From: Candidatus Aminicenantota bacterium
GTDB taxonomy: Bacteria; Acidobacteriota; Aminicenantia; UBA2199
Reading direction: 5' to 3'
NCBI GenBank assembly: GCA_020355945.1
Contig: CP070627.1
Location: 199,119 to 218,873 of the forward strand
DNA: 19,755 nucleotides
In this document: in pieces, positions 1 to 10,578 of the stretch
Position numbering within the stretch: the first letter of the stretch is position 1
How the letters are laid out: the number at the start of each line of letters is the position of its first letter
The notes under the pieces: generated by a model
The model's input: only the letters and a program-made list of their open reading frames with translations
What the model was told of the DNA's origin: nothing
The model's database searches: none
Position numbers and translations under genes: made by a program

Positions 1-2460
1 GTAGACTTCCCTGGTTCGCTCTTTTACCAGCCGTTCGAGCCGCTGTTTTTCCTTCTCCAATCTCCCGGACCGCCACTTTACCACCAGGAACATCAGCCCC
101 AAAAATAGGAAAGCATAAATGACAAATGACCACCACGTGTTGTACCAGGGCGGCAAAATCTTAAACTTGAATGCGTCTTCTTTCCCTTCATGACCATAAA
201 TATTTTTCGCCCGTACCCGGAAAGTATACAGCCCGAAGTCGAGGTTAGTATAATACTTCCTGGTCTCTTTGTTCCAGGTGGACCAATCGCTGTCATATCC
301 TTCCAGGAAACATCGATACTGTGTACCGGTTTCATCCTCGAAAAAAGGCGCGGCAAACTCAAAGTAGAGGTTTCTATCCCGATATTCAATAATTGGGAAA
401 GGCCGTTTAGCCACTTCATTGGTTTTATTTATATTTACAGGACCATCCATAATTTTTTTTTCATTTTTTTGCTTTTCATTTACAAGTACTCTTCGAATCA
501 ACGTGTGGAAACACTGTGTGTAATCCTTTTTTACTGATGAATCGAAACTGAATAGGCCATCATTGCTGGCGAACCAGGTGGTTTTTCCATCGGGTTCGGG
601 ATAGATGGCATTCACCTGTACGGTGGGGGGAATCCTGAGAAAAGGCCTGGAAATGATTTTATAAGGGGCTCCAGGCTGGGGAATGGCCTGGTAATTCCTG
701 GATTTCGAATGGAACCAGATGTGTTTATTCTTGCCTTCAGCAATGCGAAAGACAGGTCTGGCTCCACCTGCGAATTGATCGCCCAGTGTGGGGTCGGGGA
801 TAAAGGATTTGGTTTTGCCGTCAAAACGATATAATCCTTTGGTGGTGGCAAATAAGATGTGACCCGCGGCTTCGGCCACATACGTCTCTCCGCCGGGCAG
901 CCCGTGTGATGTGTCATAGGTTGTGACCGCGGATCTAGCCATGTCGTTTGGATATTCGATTTTAAACACATGTCCGGTTGATGGCCCCAGCCACAGGTTT
1001 CCTTGTTTGTCTTCCGCGATGCTTCTTATGGATTGATCGATATGCTCAAGCCGGTATTCGTTACTCCAATTGCCGTGTTTTTGTGATAAAGATGCCAATC
1101 CAAGTTTCGTTCCACACCAAATACGACCGGGGTGTTGTTTGGATATCAATAACACAAAAGCCGGATCTTTAATAACATTTCGTTGGATCTTCTTTTCAAC
1201 CTGGAAAACCCCTGCGGATGAAGCTGCTAAAATCGAATCCCCCACCGGTACCAGGTCCCAGCACCAACCGGACATACCGGGGACCAGGTGGAAGTTTTTA
1301 GAAGACTCAAGGTAGTACAATCCTTTGGAAGTGCCCGCATATAAAACATTCTCATGTTTGAGTACCGATGTAACCAGACCTTCCAGTTTGCACCGCTCAT
1401 CATATATAGAAAAGGGAGATGCATATTCGATTTTTGAAATACCTTTATTCAGGCACAACCACAGGTTTTCATGGATATCCTGGAAAACATATTTTACATT
1501 ATCATCCTGTAGGCCGGAGGTTTTATCCAGTATATCTTTAAGGTGTCCCTGTGGGTCTATCACCACGAGGCCGCCGTACAGGGTTGCCAGGGCAAAATCA
1601 CCGGAGGAAAGCCGGATACCATGAGATAGTTCATTGTTTTTTAAATAATCATCCGCTTCTGTAGGAAAAGGTTTAACTGCTTTTCCATCATAGATGAAAA
1701 AGCCAATTGACTGGGTTCCGATGATCAATTCCCGGTTTTTATTTTTATTATAAGGGGCCAGGAAATAAATCTTATGGTCTTTAAACAATTCAGTGCCAGG
1801 CAGCAGTTGCAGGGAGCCATTGACCATTTTTAAAAGTCCCCTGTTTTTTTCGTTTACAAGAAAATCTCCATTATGTACAAAAAAATTCCAGAAAGAGGAA
1901 GAAGAGGTCCATGATTTTATTTTTTTTAAATCGGGGTTCCATTGGAACAGGAATTTCGATGTCCTGAAAAAGATGCCTTGTTTTGCGGCATGGGTGGTCA
2001 ATACATTACCGAAATTTTTTTGATCATCCCGGAGGTGGTTTAACAGCGACTTATATATCAAAGCACCTGTCGAGTCATGGGCTAAATACCAGATTTTATT
2101 ATTTCCCCCGATGTAGATGGTTCCTGTTTTATCGATGGCCAGGGAGCGTACGGTGTCGTATTCGGGAGTGCTGATGAGCCGCCAGGAAACACCGTCAAAT
2201 TCCAGTACCCCGCCATGGTTAGCCACATAGATGATCCCGTTTTTAGCCTGGGCAATGCCCCAATTTTGCGGTTGATGATCATACTCCTTATAGCTGTAAT
2301 TCTTGAAATATTTAAAACCGGGAGACTGATGACTATAGATATTCGCAGATGTCCCCCAAATAAGTACGAGGAAAAAGAGTATTCCAATGCCCTTTGGGGC
2401 TGAAAAATTTTTACTTATCCCTTTTCGTTCTGCCAATTCGGTTGTTCTCCATCTAAGCAT
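1..2460 (-). CDS. two-component-regulator-propeller / Y_Y_Y sensor protein, C-terminus beyond window
   Basis: An uninterrupted 820-codon reading frame runs from an ATG at 2460 off the left edge. Residues about 24-38 form a hydrophobic segment (signal anchor or signal peptide). What follows is a series of beta-propeller blades with the reg_prop pattern, for example DNVKYVFQDIHENLWLCLNK, SIRSIAEDKQGNLWLG and ASNDGLFSFDS. About residues 690-770 resemble a Y_Y_Y domain (LEGYDSDWSTW, then YTFRVRAKN), ending with the typical PPWYNTWW. A transmembrane helix spans about 778-795 and a charged coiled segment (LEKEKQRLERLVKERTREV) enters the cytoplasm. In this family such a segment leads to a histidine kinase, GGDEF or DNA-binding output, which is not visible here. 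The likely role is periplasmic ligand sensing, often polysaccharide-related; the ligand is unknown. The Shine-Dalgarno is weak (TTGGAA directly before ATG). Confidence 0.88.
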   Translation of the reverse strand, partial: MLRWRTTELAERKGISKNFSAPKGIGILFFLVLIWGTSANIYSHQSPGFKYFKNYSYKEYDHQPQNWGIAQAKNGIIYVANHGGVLEFDGVSWRLISTPEYDTVRSLAIDKTGTIYIGGNNKIWYLAHDSTGALIYKSLLNHLRDDQKNFGNVLTTHAAKQGIFFRTSKFLFQWNPDLKKIKSWTSSSSFWNFFVHNGDFLVNEKNRGLLKMVNGSLQLLPGTELFKDHKIYFLAPYNKNKNRELIIGTQSIGFFIYDGKAVKPFPTEADDYLKNNELSHGIRLSSGDFALATLYGGLVVIDPQGHLKDILDKTSGLQDDNVKYVFQDIHENLWLCLNKGISKIEYASPFSIYDERCKLEGLVTSVLKHENVLYAGTSKGLYYLESSKNFHLVPGMSGWCWDLVPVGDSILAASSAGVFQVEKKIQRNVIKDPAFVLLISKQHPGRIWCGTKLGLASLSQKHGNWSNEYRLEHIDQSIRSIAEDKQGNLWLGPSTGHVFKIEYPNDMARSAVTTYDTSHGLPGGETYVAEAAGHILFATTKGLYRFDGKTKSFIPDPTLGDQFAGGARPVFRIAEGKNKHIWFHSKSRNYQAIPQPGAPYKIISRPFLRIPPTVQVNAIYPEPDGKTTWFASNDGLFSFDSSVKKDYTQCFHTLIRRVLVNEKQKNEKKIMDGPVNINKTNEVAKRPFPIIEYRDRNLYFEFAAPFFEDETGTQYRCFLEGYDSDWSTWNKETRKYYTNLDFGLYTFRVRAKNIYGHEGKEDAFKFKILPPWYNTWWSFVIYAFLFLGLMFLVVKWRSGRLEKEKQRLERLVKERTREVY
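2302..2333 (+). repeat. 32-bp direct repeat, copy 1 (inside sensor CDS)
   Basis: These 32 bases, beginning CTTGAAATATTTAAAACC and ending GACTGATGAC, occur identically at 2566-2597. This copy encodes part of the sensor's N-terminal region just after the signal segment (complement reads HQSPGFKYFK). Confidence 0.9.
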
Positions 2461-2565: not shown

Positions 2566-2597
2566 CTTGAAATATTTAAAACCGGGAGACTGATGAC
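2566..2597 (+). repeat. 32-bp direct repeat, copy 2 (intergenic, upstream of the sensor promoter)
   Basis: Exact copy of 2302-2333 lying outside any gene, about 60 bp upstream of the sensor's -35. The bases on either side differ from copy 1, so the duplicated unit is limited to 32 bp. It could be a remnant of an earlier copy of the gene's 5' end. Confidence 0.9.
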
Positions 2598-2703: not shown

Positions 2704-3180
2704 TCATTTATCCCATTTTAAGATATCTCTTCGGATAAAATACATTAACATGGGATCAGTTAAGTAATAGTTCTTGCCCTTTTTTCTTATTATTCCTTTT
2801 TCGGTCAATTTTCTTAAGGCTCGAGATACATTCACCCGTTTTATATCCATCTCGTGATAGAGCGAATCGACATTTTGAGCAATGGCTATAAGAACTTGCG
2901 TTTGTTCCCGGCTGGAAGATAATTCATCCCAGGTTTTTTCGATATAGCTTATTTCACTCCAGAAAGCTTCCTCTATCGCTTCATCAACATCATGGCTATC
3001 CAGCGAGTTCGAGGAGGCCGAAAAATATTCCAGTTCCCTGCAAACCAACTGGGTATAGTAAGGATGTCCACCACTAAATACCATAATGCGATCTAAAGCA
3101 GCGGGTTTAATGATTTTTTCGCGGCCAATCAACTTCTCGCCTATCACCGGGCGTCCTGCCTGGAATATTTTGTTCTTCAT
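2704..3180 (-). pseudogene. AAA ATPase remnant lacking the nucleotide-binding core (158 codons)
   Basis: The first ~24 residues (FQAGRPVIGEKLIGREKII) match the start of archaeal-type AAA ATPases (PF01637/COG1672-like), in which a GRxxxI segment is followed by a linker and then the P-loop. Here it jumps straight to the C-terminal part: FSGGHPYYTQLVCREL (about 35-51), a helical region, and a winged helix (VNVSRALRKLTEKGIIRKKG, about 115-135). There is no Walker A, Walker B or sensor motif, and the length is well under half of the ~370 residues I expect for the family. An in-frame internal deletion explains this. The frame is open and keeps a good promoter and Shine-Dalgarno (CAGGAAAAAA before ATG), so it may still be expressed as a small winged-helix protein. 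Family assignment is from motif recognition only. Confidence 0.7.
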
Positions 3181-4639: not shown

Positions 4640-5605
4640 TTACTCCTTATCATTTATCCCTGGCTGTCCGGGTTCTTCCGTGGTTAATATACCGGGTTCG
4701 GATTCATTGACTTTTCGGATAAAGATATTGTTCAACGACGGTTCGGTTACCTGGAAACTGTTGATGGTTACTTTATCCAGCAGGTCTCTTAACAATTTAT
4801 CTTTAAAATTAATATCCCTGGGTTCGATTTCCATTTCATTGCCGTAGTCTCTTACACCCTTGACATAGTCCAGCGCTGAAACAAAACCGGCGTCACCTTC
4901 ATATTTTACTTTAATAAATTTTGTGCCGTAATCCGCTTTAATACTGGACAGGGTGCCGTCGATAACTTTTTTGCCTTTATCAATCATCACCACACTGTCA
5001 ACAATTTTTTCCGCGTATTCCATCAGGTGGGTGGAAAAGATAATGGTAATACCTTCGCGTTTCATCTCCAGGATGATATCTTTTACCAGTTCGATATTAA
5101 CCGGGTCCAGCCCGGCAAAGGGTTCATCCAGGATGAGCAGTTCCGGGGAATGAATGATGGTAGTGATAAATTGGAGTTTTTGCGCCATACCTTTTGATAG
5201 TTCTTCTACTTTTTTATCCCTGTAGTCTGCCAGGCCAAACTCTTTGAGGAGTCCCTGTCCTTTGAATTTAATGTCAGCGGTTTTCATTCCTTTGAGTTCA
5301 CCAAAAAAGGTCAAGGTTTCAGAGACTTTTAATTTCCGGTATAGGCCCCGTTCCTCCGGTAAAAAGCCAATCCGTTCTTTCATTTTTTCTGAGAAATGTT
5401 CACCCAGGATTTTGATTGTCCCTGAATCGGGTGCGATGATGTTCAAAATCATTCGCAAAGTAGTGGTTTTACCGGCGCCGTTGGGCCCCAGCAGTCCCAG
5501 TATTTCACCTTTTTTTAATTTAAAGGAAATGTGGTCTACTGCTCGTTTTCCATTGAAATCTTTTACCAGTTTTTCCAGTTCCAACGCATAATCATAATGG
5601 CTCAT
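4640..5605 (-). CDS. ABC transporter ATP-binding protein (NatA-like)
   Basis: Cytoplasmic ATPase of the exporter whose permease follows. It shows Walker A GPNGAGKT (40-47), Q-loop region GFLPEERGLY (80-89), signature LSKGM (136-140), Walker B LLILDEP (156-162), D-loop AGLDP and switch His193 in STHL. At 321 residues it has the extra C-terminal domain (about 215-305, with IFIRKVNESE near its end) typical of DrrA/NatA-type proteins paired with ABC-2 permeases. The last residues after about 305 are polar and variable. GGAGG lies 11 nt upstream of ATG 5605; a nearer ATG just after it opens only a 7-codon out-of-frame peptide, so 5605 is preferred. First gene of a two-gene operon. Confidence 0.92.
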   Translation of the reverse strand: MSHYDYALELEKLVKDFNGKRAVDHISFKLKKGEILGLLGPNGAGKTTTLRMILNIIAPDSGTIKILGEHFSEKMKERIGFLPEERGLYRKLKVSETLTFFGELKGMKTADIKFKGQGLLKEFGLADYRDKKVEELSKGMAQKLQFITTIIHSPELLILDEPFAGLDPVNIELVKDIILEMKREGITIIFSTHLMEYAEKIVDSVVMIDKGKKVIDGTLSSIKADYGTKFIKVKYEGDAGFVSALDYVKGVRDYGNEMEIEPRDINFKDKLLRDLLDKVTINSFQVTEPSLNNIFIRKVNESEPGILTTEEPGQPGINDKE

Positions 5606-5643
5606 CAGTTTTCATGCCTCCTTTCAGGCCAATAAGTCTGGAA

Positions 5644-5801: not shown

Positions 5802-5830
5802 TTGATTTTTAATACTTATGCGTATAAAAT
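5802..5830 (+). promoter_or_regulatory. promoter of the AAA/DUF4143 gene
   Basis: TTGATT (5802-5807), 17 bp, TAAAAT (5825-5830). The -35 lies outside and the -10 inside the 64-bp repeat. A second -10-like TATAAT is at 5835-5840. Either start would place the 15-bp-arm palindrome at the beginning of the transcript, directly before the Shine-Dalgarno. Confidence 0.5.
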
Positions 5831-5881
5831 AATTTATAATACGCAAAAGTTGGAACTTTTGCGTATTAAGGTGAAGAATAA
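5818..5881 (+). repeat. 64-bp direct repeat, left copy, containing palindrome and ribosome binding site
   Basis: Identical over 64 bases to 7225-7288. It starts ATGCGTATAAAATAATTT and ends GGTGAAGAATAA. Inside it is a perfect inverted repeat: arms 5837-5851 and 5854-5868 (TAATACGCAAAAGTT and its complement) around GG. The arm's ATACGCA core also occurs inverted near the repeat start (TGCGTAT, 5819-5825). AAGGTG (5868-5873) begins at the last base of the palindrome and is 8 nt before the AAA gene's ATG. The copy therefore contains most of the 5' leader of the gene. Confidence 0.95.
5837..5868 (+). promoter_or_regulatory. perfect palindrome (15-bp arms, GG spacer): operator or leader hairpin
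   Basis: TAATACGCAAAAGTT, GG, then the exact reverse complement. It lies just downstream of the predicted -10 and touches the Shine-Dalgarno. As DNA it has the size of a dimeric repressor operator. As RNA it could fold with a two-base loop (fewer pairs in practice) and affect ribosome access. Which of these holds is inference. Confidence 0.6.
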
Positions 5882-7150
5882 ATGGCAAAAATCCAAAATA
5901 TTTTAACAATGCAAAAAAGGGAACTGGAAAAAACCCTCCGCGCTCATTATATCCGCAGGGATATCCAATTACCCGCACCGGACAAAGATATTATAAAGGT
6001 GATTATTGGCCCCAGGAGGTCAGGCAAAAGCTTTTTTACCATTCATGAATTAAATAAAGTGGGTACTTACGGGTATGCCAATTTTGACGATGAAGCCCTG
6101 GTAGAGGTTGACGATTATAACGACATCATTGAAACCATCCAGGCACTATATCAAAAAACTGATGTTATTTTCCTGGATGAAATTCAGAATTTACCCAAAT
6201 GGGAATTATTTGTCAACCGACTGCAGCGGCAGGGGTATTGCCTGGTGGTCACCGGGAGTAATTCCCGGTTGTTAAGCCGGGAATTGGCCAGTCACCTGAC
6301 GGGTCGCTACCTTCCTGCTCTTGTTTTCCCGTTTTCTTTCAAGGAATATCTCAGGTATTATTATCCTGGGGATGTAACCACCAGCGAAATAAAGACAAAA
6401 TTGAGCGATTATCTTCAATCCGGGGGATTCCCCGAACCCCTGGTTAAAGACCTCAATCTTAAGCAATATTTAAGTACGCTGCACGATTCAGTGATATTTA
6501 AAGATATTATAAAGCGTCATAAGATCAGGGCTTCCAGGGGAATCGCAGAGTTATCCAGGTATTTATTGTCCAATCCCGGTGCGTTGGTTTCTTATCGGAA
6601 CCTGGCTAAAATATGCAAAGTAAAAAGTGAACATACCATAACCAAATACCTGGGCCACCTGGAAGAAGCATTTTTGTTCTTCCAGGTAACCGCTTTTTCT
6701 TTCAAGGTTAGAAACCAGGTAAAAGCCCCGAAGAAAATATACGCTGTAGACAACGGTTTGATTACTTCCCTGGGTTTTCGAGTTTTTGACACCCTGGGGG
6801 TTCTTTATGAAAACCTTGCAGCCATTGAACTTAAAAGAAGAGAGCTTAACGGTGAATTGGAATTCTATTATTACAAAACCCGGCAGGATTATGAAGTGGA
6901 TTTTGTTATTAAACAGGCACTGGAGGTGACTCAATTGGTCCAGGTCTCCTACAATATTACCGATGAGAAAACAAAATCCCGGGAAACCAGGGCACTGGTT
7001 TATGCCTCGAAGGAGTTGAATTGTACAAAACTTATGGTTATCACCGACGACTACGAAGGGGAAGAAACAGTTGAATGGTATGGGATAAAAAGAAAAATAA
7101 GGTTTATCCCCCTGTGGAGATGGCTGCTTTTACCGGACTTTACTTTATGA
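5882..7150 (+). CDS. AAA ATPase with C-terminal DUF4143 (PD-(D/E)XK-like) domain
   Basis: A 422-residue protein of the AAA_14/DUF4143 family. Walker A is GPRRSGKS (43-50), Walker B VIFLDEIQ (95-102), sensor-1-like TGSNS (124-128) and arginine finger-like HLTGR (138-142). The middle carries a winged-helix-like stretch (YRNLAKICKVKSEHTITKYL). The C-terminal DUF4143 part (about 205 onward) shows a PD-(D/E)XK-like set: E315 in AAIELKRR, EVDFV (337-341) and VQVSYN (352-357). Members are widespread, multicopy and mostly uncharacterised; proposed roles range from DNA-related ATPase to toxin-like element, and none is proven. ATG 5882 has AAGGTG 8 nt upstream. The gene is bracketed by 64-bp direct repeats and has no coexpressed neighbour. 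Confidence 0.9.
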   Translation: MAKIQNILTMQKRELEKTLRAHYIRRDIQLPAPDKDIIKVIIGPRRSGKSFFTIHELNKVGTYGYANFDDEALVEVDDYNDIIETIQALYQKTDVIFLDEIQNLPKWELFVNRLQRQGYCLVVTGSNSRLLSRELASHLTGRYLPALVFPFSFKEYLRYYYPGDVTTSEIKTKLSDYLQSGGFPEPLVKDLNLKQYLSTLHDSVIFKDIIKRHKIRASRGIAELSRYLLSNPGALVSYRNLAKICKVKSEHTITKYLGHLEEAFLFFQVTAFSFKVRNQVKAPKKIYAVDNGLITSLGFRVFDTLGVLYENLAAIELKRRELNGELEFYYYKTRQDYEVDFVIKQALEVTQLVQVSYNITDEKTKSRETRALVYASKELNCTKLMVITDDYEGEETVEWYGIKRKIRFIPLWRWLLLPDFTL

Positions 7151-7224
7151 TAGGTAATCCGTCGGTAAGAAGCCTTCCGAACGTCTTCTTGTCGCGGTGC
7201 GTCATCTGCTGCTGAAGATTCGAG

Positions 7225-7288
7225 ATGCGTATAAAATAATTTATAATACGCAAAAGTTGGAACTTTTGCGTATTAAGGTGAAGAATAA
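7225..7288 (+). repeat. 64-bp direct repeat, right copy (orphan leader)
   Basis: Exact copy of 5818-5881, starting 1407 bp downstream in the same orientation. It includes the palindrome (arms 7244-7258 and 7261-7275) and the AAGGTG site, but no ATG or gene follows at the expected distance. It is a leader without its ORF. Confidence 0.95.
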
Positions 7289-7391
7289 TTTGAGTTCCCC
7301 CTTGCACCTTGTGCCCCTAATGAAATTAATAAAAAGTTTTTGCGGAGGATGTCGGGTCCAGGGAGGGCGGTTTTTTCTAAAAAGCTCTTCC

Positions 7392-7473
7392 GTTGACAAT
7401 TGACCATTGACAATTAAAAGAGTTAAAGAAGATATTTCGATGAGAGATGAATTGTCAATCGTCAATTGTCAAC
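7392..7473 (+). repeat. 24-bp inverted repeat built of TTGACAATT units
   Basis: Left arm 7392-7415 (GTTGACAATTGACCATTGACAATT pattern) and right arm 7450-7473 are reverse complements with one mismatch, separated by 34 bp. A further AATTGTCAAT follows at 7478-7487. It could form a long cruciform or an RNA hairpin at the 3' side of the recA operon. I recognise TTGACAATT strings as a dispersed intergenic repeat type; it is not flanked by U-tracts, so a terminator role is uncertain. Confidence 0.8.
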
Positions 7474-9898: not shown

Positions 9899-10578
9899 TT
9901 CAGCCGTCTCCCAAACAATGCAGTGCCGATCCGGATAATTGTTGCCCCTTCTTCAACTGCTATTTCGTAATCTTCACTCATCCCCATGGAAAGGTGTCGG
10001 ATATCAAAGTTAGACAAATTCATGCTGTTAATTTCATCTTTTAATTCACGAATCTTTTTAAAATAAGGGCGCACCTCTTCCGGATCGTCACAAATGGGAG
10101 GGATGGACATCAGGCCGGTGATTTTCACCCGGTCCAATAAGGCAACGTAATTTAAGGCTTTTTTCAATCCGTCAACAGTGAAACCGGATTTATTTTTCTC
10201 TTCACCGATATTAATTTCAATAAAGACCTCAATCACATCGCTTACACGTTTATGAATATGCTCCAGGGATTTGACACCGTCCACCGATTGGATAAAATCA
10301 AAGCTTTTTAAAATGCGGTTGATTTTGTTTTTTTGCAGCTTCCCGATAAAGTGCCATTTGATGTCCAGGTCTCTTAAGTCTGCTTGATGAATATCGGCTT
10401 CCTGGGTTTTATTTTCTCCGATTAGCCGAACTCCGCACTGGTAAGCTTCTTTTATTTTTTCTGTGGGTTGACTTTTGGCCACTCCCATGATTTGCACTTC
10501 AGACGCACTTCGAGCAACTCTTTGGCAGCCTCTGCGAACGTTTCCCATAATTTTTTGATAATTATCTTTAATACTCAT
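9895..10578 (-). CDS. yggS: YggS/PROSC family pyridoxal-phosphate homeostasis protein
   Basis: A 227-residue PLP-binding TIM-barrel protein that buffers PLP and amino-acid metabolism; no catalytic activity is established for the family. The PLP-binding Lys is expected at K35 in MGVAKSQP (31-38). Other family motifs are RLIGENKTQEA, WHFIGKLQKNK (the usual middle residue is His or Pro), a GLMSIPP segment, LSMGMSEDYEIAVEEGATII and RIGTALFGRR at the end. Length is normal. ATG 10578 is preceded by AGGGATGTTGAA. It is the first gene of the yggS-yggT-divIVA-recA operon. Confidence 0.95.
   Translation of the reverse strand: MSIKDNYQKIMGNVRRGCQRVARSASEVQIMGVAKSQPTEKIKEAYQCGVRLIGENKTQEADIHQADLRDLDIKWHFIGKLQKNKINRILKSFDFIQSVDGVKSLEHIHKRVSDVIEVFIEINIGEEKNKSGFTVDGLKKALNYVALLDRVKITGLMSIPPICDDPEEVRPYFKKIRELKDEINSMNLSNFDIRHLSMGMSEDYEIAVEEGATIIRIGTALFGRRLK

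Follow-up and report, generated by a model that had tools for sequence, protein, structure and literature searches.

An ATPase gene between two copies of its own leader

The window, by which we mean the whole stretch of 19,755 nucleotides analysed here, contains on its + strand a gene for an ATPase of 422 residues (5882..7150) that has its own leader on both sides, in two identical copies. Our repeat search places these copies at 5818..5881 and 7225..7288, both on the + strand, at a spacing of 1407 bp and with an identity of 64/64, as the earlier note had claimed. The last base of copy 1 lies directly 5' of the ATG at 5882, and a reading of the DNA bears out the description of this copy as a leader: it contains a promoter-like TATAAT (around 5835..5840), an operator-like palindrome of 32 bp with arms of 15 bp and a centre of 2 bp (5837..5868), and the ribosome-binding site AGGTG (around 5869..5873). 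The stop codon of the gene is followed by a spacer of 74 bp (7151..7224) and then by copy 2, in which the palindrome recurs at 7244..7275. This second copy does lead to no gene, since in the ORF list of the window no ORF of at least 70 aa starts on the + strand downstream of it until 7611. An exact repeat of 64 bp is not a chance event.

Between 5818 and 7288 the ATPase gene is the sole + strand ORF of at least 70 aa, while the two - strand ORFs in this interval (6563..6934 and 7241..7465), which are seen in the ORF list only, are short and mostly antisense. Judged from the ORF list of the interval, the unit contains no transposase such as a DNA transposon would carry; what it presents is one gene between direct repeats, the layout expected of a cassette born of recombination. 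The window contains 48 exact repeated 25-mers, of which 40 belong to the 64-bp pair and 8 to an exact 32-bp direct repeat (2302..2333 and 2566..2597) that lies in a gene-poor stretch close to an AAA-like remnant. A near-perfect inverted repeat of 24 bp, of the TTGACAATTG type, is found at 7392..7415 and 7450..7473, and similar stretches occur in loci L110 and L158. An Rfam scan of the window gave nothing at gathering scores. The ORF at 2704..3180 on the - strand, which the earlier note had called a gutted AAA gene, is indeed present; however, it has winged-helix-type matches alone, under the Pfam cut-off, and none to AAA_14 or DUF4143, leaving its kinship with the ATPase family unsupported. 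We take it to resemble a STAND-type ATPase with a deleted centre.

The ATPase itself matches AAA_14 and DUF4143 in Pfam at 102 and 79.2 bits, against cut-offs of 27 and 28.1, and its residues 22-416 match PDLC04787 (E = 1.2e-102), the PADLOC-DB model of PDC-S01, a single-gene phage-defence candidate. Phage defence by the window protein is here a candidate function, a label given by PADLOC rather than a result. The structure model (mean pLDDT 87.2) is similar to STAND-type ATPases, with SSO1545 (2fna) as the best likeness followed by CED-4 and NLR chains, whereas a PDB sequence search with a nine-row profile returned no match at E 0.01, its effective coverage being residues 6-325 with the C-terminal domain outside. 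The STAND-like fold is a prediction and gives no proof of function. Active sites of PD-(D/E)XK nucleases have an E-x-K after a conserved D. In the present family D340 and Q354 are invariant among 43 relatives, and nine aligned sequences have S, C or A, and never K, two residues past Q354; the E-x-K thus seems to have been exchanged in DUF4143 for Q-x-[S/C/A], and a nuclease activity of the PD-(D/E)XK type in this domain looks doubtful.

The best named relatives of the protein come from Candidatus Aminicenantes, and two Aminicenantes genomes hold 28 and 44 DUF4143 matches, which agrees with the proliferating ATPase family that the first reading of the DNA had proposed. Four relatives are found on Acinetobacter plasmids. 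Two of these (L282 and L284) adjoin genes annotated as WYL, DUF1819 and DUF1788, a third adjoins ORFs that agree with these in size and position but are named differently, and around the fourth none of the three was found in the stretch examined. We take these neighbours to be BREX components.

On one side of the unit the window holds two ORFs that are presumably an ABC transporter pair, and on the other a 159-aa ORF (hyp159) followed by recA and by what we take to be divIVA, yggT and yggS, in that order. The order from hyp159 to yggS is mostly conserved in 10 loci taken from the genomes that gave the ten best matches for RecA, with L156 lacking a match to hyp159 and L165 stopping at recA. An ATPase match occurs in 0 of these 10 recA loci, three of which offer little or no sequence past hyp159 (the contig of L160 stops within it, and L159 and L161 reach less than 1 kb beyond). 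This is not the arrangement conserved in all relatives that was expected of a simple old local duplication. The ABC-transporter side is likewise present in 0 of the 10 loci, and a clean empty site for the window can therefore not be read from them.

Direct repeats around the genes of the family

Flanking direct repeats are a trait of this ATPase family. In a sample chosen by homology (110 loci and the window; blastn at E <= 1e-5, with 500 bp required on each side of the ATPase), a direct repeat spans the gene for 19 of 99 ATPases versus 5 of 224 control ORFs, the controls being other ORFs of 250-650 aa from the same loci. Without the window the counts are 18/98 versus 5/224 (Fisher p = 1.2e-6), and the other 80 of the 98 ATPases in this unbiased sample have no flanking repeat. 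An enlarged sample gives 32/149 versus 12/420, figures that are biased upward because some genomes were taken in on account of their repeats; clustered at 90%, it gives 29/143 versus 12/412. If we ask for repeats of at least 40 bp and at least 85% identity, the clustered counts become 16/143 versus 4/412, and with at most two copies per locus 9/143 (including the window) versus 3/412, the contrast shrinking under this last limit because several of the counted repeats are dispersed. The repeat-flanked control ORFs are a mixed lot: among the 10 of 12 scanned against Pfam are a Na/Ca exchanger, a glycosyltransferase, a YhcG-type nuclease, a Schlafen-type protein and others, as well as three with no match.

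The repeats vary in length from 19 to 298 bp among loci and differ widely in sequence, and 28 of the 31 pairs other than that of the window are imperfect copies. ATPase-like sequence, searched for with each locus's own ATPase as query, lies within 800 bp outside the repeats in 2 of the 32 repeat-flanked loci, so that the repeats do not usually stem from a decayed tandem copy of the gene. Nor did we find support for the 64 bp of the window as a general end of such units. In the class to which the Aminicenantes relative G002 belongs, 0 of 142 genomes contain them, a weak negative since this search had no positive control, and the exact core of the window palindrome is present in 0 of 281 loci examined; the relatives use other repeat sequences. 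The core was found 0 times in viral contigs, where one of 18 pattern-matching stretches encodes a relative of the ATPase, at 32% identity. The viral search, which detects close relatives alone, gives no sign of phage carriage, which may still occur.

What, then, are the repeats? In 10 of the 32 pairs (L034, L008, L200, L210 twice, L209 twice, L035 and L003 twice) one copy coincides with the end of a readable ORF. This copy lies inside the gene, and the other is orphaned past the ATPase. The remaining 22 pairs are intergenic, dispersed, gene fragments or without assignment. For concreteness, consider cysS. In L034 the repeat spans the final 102 bp of an intact cysS (Pfam), with the orphan copy past the ATPase. 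Its relative L272 has, next to cysS, an ATPase of 37% identity and, beyond this, an orphan copy (156 bp) of the end region of cysS; the two loci together thus have two different ATPases at one gene end. Behind the cysS of L274 come a transporter-like ORF and a 249-aa gene shared with L272, the ATPase and the orphan being absent. Of 26 cysS loci with flanks of at most 1.5 kb, three have an ATPase match: L034, which is the query's own, L247, in the same place as in L272, and L252, on the opposite side of cysS. The repeat of L200 consists of the last 231 bp of an XPB-like helicase gene (Pfam), and those of L008, L209 and L029, assigned by eye instead of by profile, look like a HIT-family gene end, an EF-1beta gene end and a Trm5-like fragment.

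Gene copy and orphan differ by 39 synonymous and 24 non-synonymous changes over 11 partly dependent comparisons at eight sites, with L272 and L195 left out. Against the 41% synonymous that we expect, by our own rough estimate, for a drifting local copy, this gives p = 0.0007, or 0.016 after removal of three non-independent rows. One orphan has an in-frame stop and one is frameshifted. We lean towards the view that the orphan copies would derive from another functional gene, for example that of another strain.

In some loci the repeats punctuate whole arrays. L210 contains the end of an Lhr-type helicase gene four times (44-101 bp), and these copies enclose ATPase A, an AbiEii-type gene whose adjoining ORF has no Pfam match, and ATPase B. 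L195 has five copies of a LigD-type phosphoesterase gene fragment (LigD_N), the first of 61 bp at the edge of the locus, and between them a HicA/HicB pair, an ATPase, a nucleotidyltransferase (NTP_transf_2) and a ParE-type gene with its neighbour. Pfam supplied the names of the Lhr-type, AbiEii, HicA, HicB, NTP_transf_2, ParE and LigD_N genes. Since unrelated toxin-antitoxin modules occur in the same arrays, the ATPase is more likely to be cargo than engine. Two related archaeal genomes (L195 1-5463 and L204 6762-12030) have arrays in which pieces of the LigD-phosphoesterase gene take turns with an ATPase and genes of toxin-antitoxin type; an ATPase unit of 96% identity is common to both, in arrays of different composition. 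The Lhr-type gene beside the array is present as two ORFs in L210 (7157-9660) and as a single ORF of 863 aa in L273.

The array of L210 has an empty counterpart. In genome G208 the Lhr gene (77% identical) directly precedes a 115-aa ORF which in G145, the genome of L210, stands past the array, and the next genes after this ORF are the same in both. In G145 the inserted stretch includes, after its last copy of the repeat, an extra 344-aa ORF with no further copy found beyond it, and this ORF is not explained by the insertion model. The 30 of 33 Lhr matches that we examined are G145 itself, G208 and 28 others, the latter being uninformative because neither the array genes nor the 115-aa neighbour lay within the 1.5 kb or less available.

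Units of the family also turn up at new positions. A comparison of the related genomes G150 and G151 gives four ATPase pairs at 86-91% identity (L176/L196, L180/L200, L192/L200 and L184/L029) that have homology over about 1.3-1.6 kb, with no megablast match in the flanks examined. Across species, the homology of L009 and L074 (90%) starts 19 bp before the ORF and stops near its end, a comparison limited by the mere 296 bp of sequence behind the gene in L009. The pair L189/L202 is a counter-example, with common flanks and inheritance in place, and L035/L042 likewise have flanks in common and were inherited in place. Of the mobile or recombining unit envisaged in the earlier note, the general idea gains from the excess of flanking repeats, the units in new sites and the one empty array site, while the part assigned to the 64 bp as a common end finds no support.

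The palindrome in the leader

The idea of a cis element that recurs in front of these genes, which had also been proposed, finds support in the leaders of related ATPases. Among 30 ATPases at least 45% identical to that of the window, 28 have a readable leader, and an inverted repeat scoring at least 9 occurs in 15 of these 28, compared with 8 of the 136 leaders of control genes and 3.9% of leaders after shuffling (Fisher p = 1.4e-8; 5.3e-8 with the window excluded). The leaders counted are related rather than independent, and the control start positions were left unrefined. The common form of the palindrome is approximately TATAATGCATAAA, 8-10 bases, TTTTGTGCATTATA, in bacteria and archaea alike, and many archaeal leaders have a TATA-like stretch within the spacer; in some of the 15 leaders (at least L004 and L031) the top-scoring inverted repeat is of another form. 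Three more distant ATPases (L041, L044 and L047) have a different leader motif, approximately TAGTATATTTTAsTAAAAT, which is repeated or palindromic. The position of the palindrome in the leader suggests an operator, which might be bound by the ATPase itself or by another repressor.

Further copies of a leader within the same locus are somewhat commoner for ATPases (21/174) than for controls (37/498). Relatives seldom have a copy of the leader past the ATPase. The clearest case is L190, where operator-like leader copies at 5567-5626 and 10492-10547 have no ATPase downstream; L190 is the nearest analogue of the leader repeat in the window. In L032 a 72-bp repeat lies upstream of two ATPase leaders.

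Origin of the unit and its meaning

How could a gene come to lie between two copies of its own leader? We consider it close to an even call that the window holds a single-gene, defence-type cassette, consisting of a PDC-S01 ATPase with its operator-like leader, and that the bounding direct repeats mark a recombination event. The unit would be the cassette together with one repeat copy, 1407 bp in the window, and it would enter through a single crossover at a stretch of homology or arise through local duplication. After entry one repeat would stand on each side, and recombination between the two could loop the unit out again. Where a repeat is the end of a readable ORF, that end would be the homology used, and the ORF would be preserved; in the window the homology would be the cassette's own leader, and the incoming ORF would thereby be placed behind an existing promoter, operator and ribosome-binding site. 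Since the window unit has no recombinase, host homologous recombination would be the likeliest engine. What we see in the family suggests that its ATPase genes can travel as small one-gene units by way of recombination, and recombination across short homology, here the leader, would best join the window with the family. Several observations count against the cassette reading: a repeat made of the gene's own leader, as in the window, is scarce among relatives, most ATPases of the unbiased sample have no flanking repeat, some pairs are inherited in place, most repeat pairs have no ORF end assigned to them, the divergence between gene copies and orphans is mixed, and neither a circle nor an excision was seen.

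A broader proposal, which we put forward tentatively, is that PDC-S01 ATPases and toxin-antitoxin modules may spread as one-gene cassettes without an integrase, short ordinary homology providing the attachment sites and successive insertions leading to repeat-punctuated arrays. The attachment site would often be a conserved gene's end and, in the window, an operator-bearing leader.

The main rival is a local tandem duplication, in which leader and ATPase were doubled head to tail and a later deletion of the second ORF left the leader stub, with no need for mobility. Such a history matches the window sequence about equally well. The repeat coincides exactly with the gene's own leader, and tandem ATPases are known in the family (L030 and L055). 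However, no sequence like the window ATPase lies within 800 bp past the repeats, and the deletion must have started precisely at the start codon, the first base past the repeat; on balance we regard this history as rather unlikely. Selection could instead maintain copy 2, as a decoy operator, as a small-RNA promoter or as a second site looping with the first. While the perfect identity, palindrome included, the recurrence of the palindrome ahead of relatives and the stand-alone copies of L190 fit this idea, the identity also covers non-palindromic parts and the ribosome-binding site, for which a decoy has no need, and the excess of second leader copies among ATPases is small, and we judge it improbable.

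Site-specific recombination, by the ATPase itself or by an Xer-type host recombinase acting on the palindrome or repeat, is given an equally low probability. The palindromic repeat at either end of a one-gene unit speaks for it, exact 28-bp repeats do occur in L007/L211 (one locus) and in L020, and pdif modules, in the part of the literature drawn on here, show that small modules can move in this way. Yet repeat length and sequence vary widely among loci, the same arrays hold modules with no ATPase, and the 28-bp repeats are, by eye and against a consensus that we recall, unlike inverted Xer sites. An assembly artefact, finally, has nothing to recommend it but the metagenomic origin of most loci, and is hardly credible: the representative of the window protein, whose cluster has 7 member sequences, sits on a 9.13-Mb contig, and the imperfect copies that make up nearly all the other repeat pairs are not something that assemblers produce.

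The proposed cassette may be set beside several known systems. The pdif/dif modules of Acinetobacter plasmids, as far as the portions of the literature drawn on here describe them, are similarly small, include toxin-antitoxin modules too, have short bounding sites and are moved by a host recombinase; they use Xer sites, however, whereas the repeats here, at 19-298 bp, vary from locus to locus, and some of them are host gene ends. Arrays of integron cassettes consist of small cassettes in series with repeats between them. L195 and L210 are alike in their serial small cassettes with repeats, but here a fragment of a host gene provides the repeats, and the window unit has no integrase. Integrative elements insert at the 3' ends of genes and restore the gene. 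The kept host gene end and the orphan copy opposite, as in the cases of cysS, Lhr and the XPB-like helicase, recall such elements, while the units here are tiny, that of the window again lacks an integrase, and the repeats are long and mostly imperfect.

PDC-S01 has been reported as the fourth most common defence across prokaryotes, with 29,494 bacterial and 9,986 archaeal members, the PDCs being largely unvalidated (PMC12988326). In the portions drawn on here, the account of PDC-S01 in that paper is silent on repeats, cassettes and leader operators, and "direct repeat" occurs 0 times in its main text. A thin check of prior art, covering titles and abstracts of the open-licence literature on the topic, came upon no description of such cassettes.

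If the proposed explanation is true, it would show how the genes of a candidate defence family, whose members number in the tens of thousands, can be transferred. Single genes enclosed by gene-end repeats would then be a signature by which other mobile defence or toxin-antitoxin genes lacking a recombinase might be recognised, and the leader palindrome would be a cis element for studying the regulation of PDC-S01. Moreover, spread as cassettes, if true, would account for PDC-S01-type candidates being scattered instead of located in defence islands.
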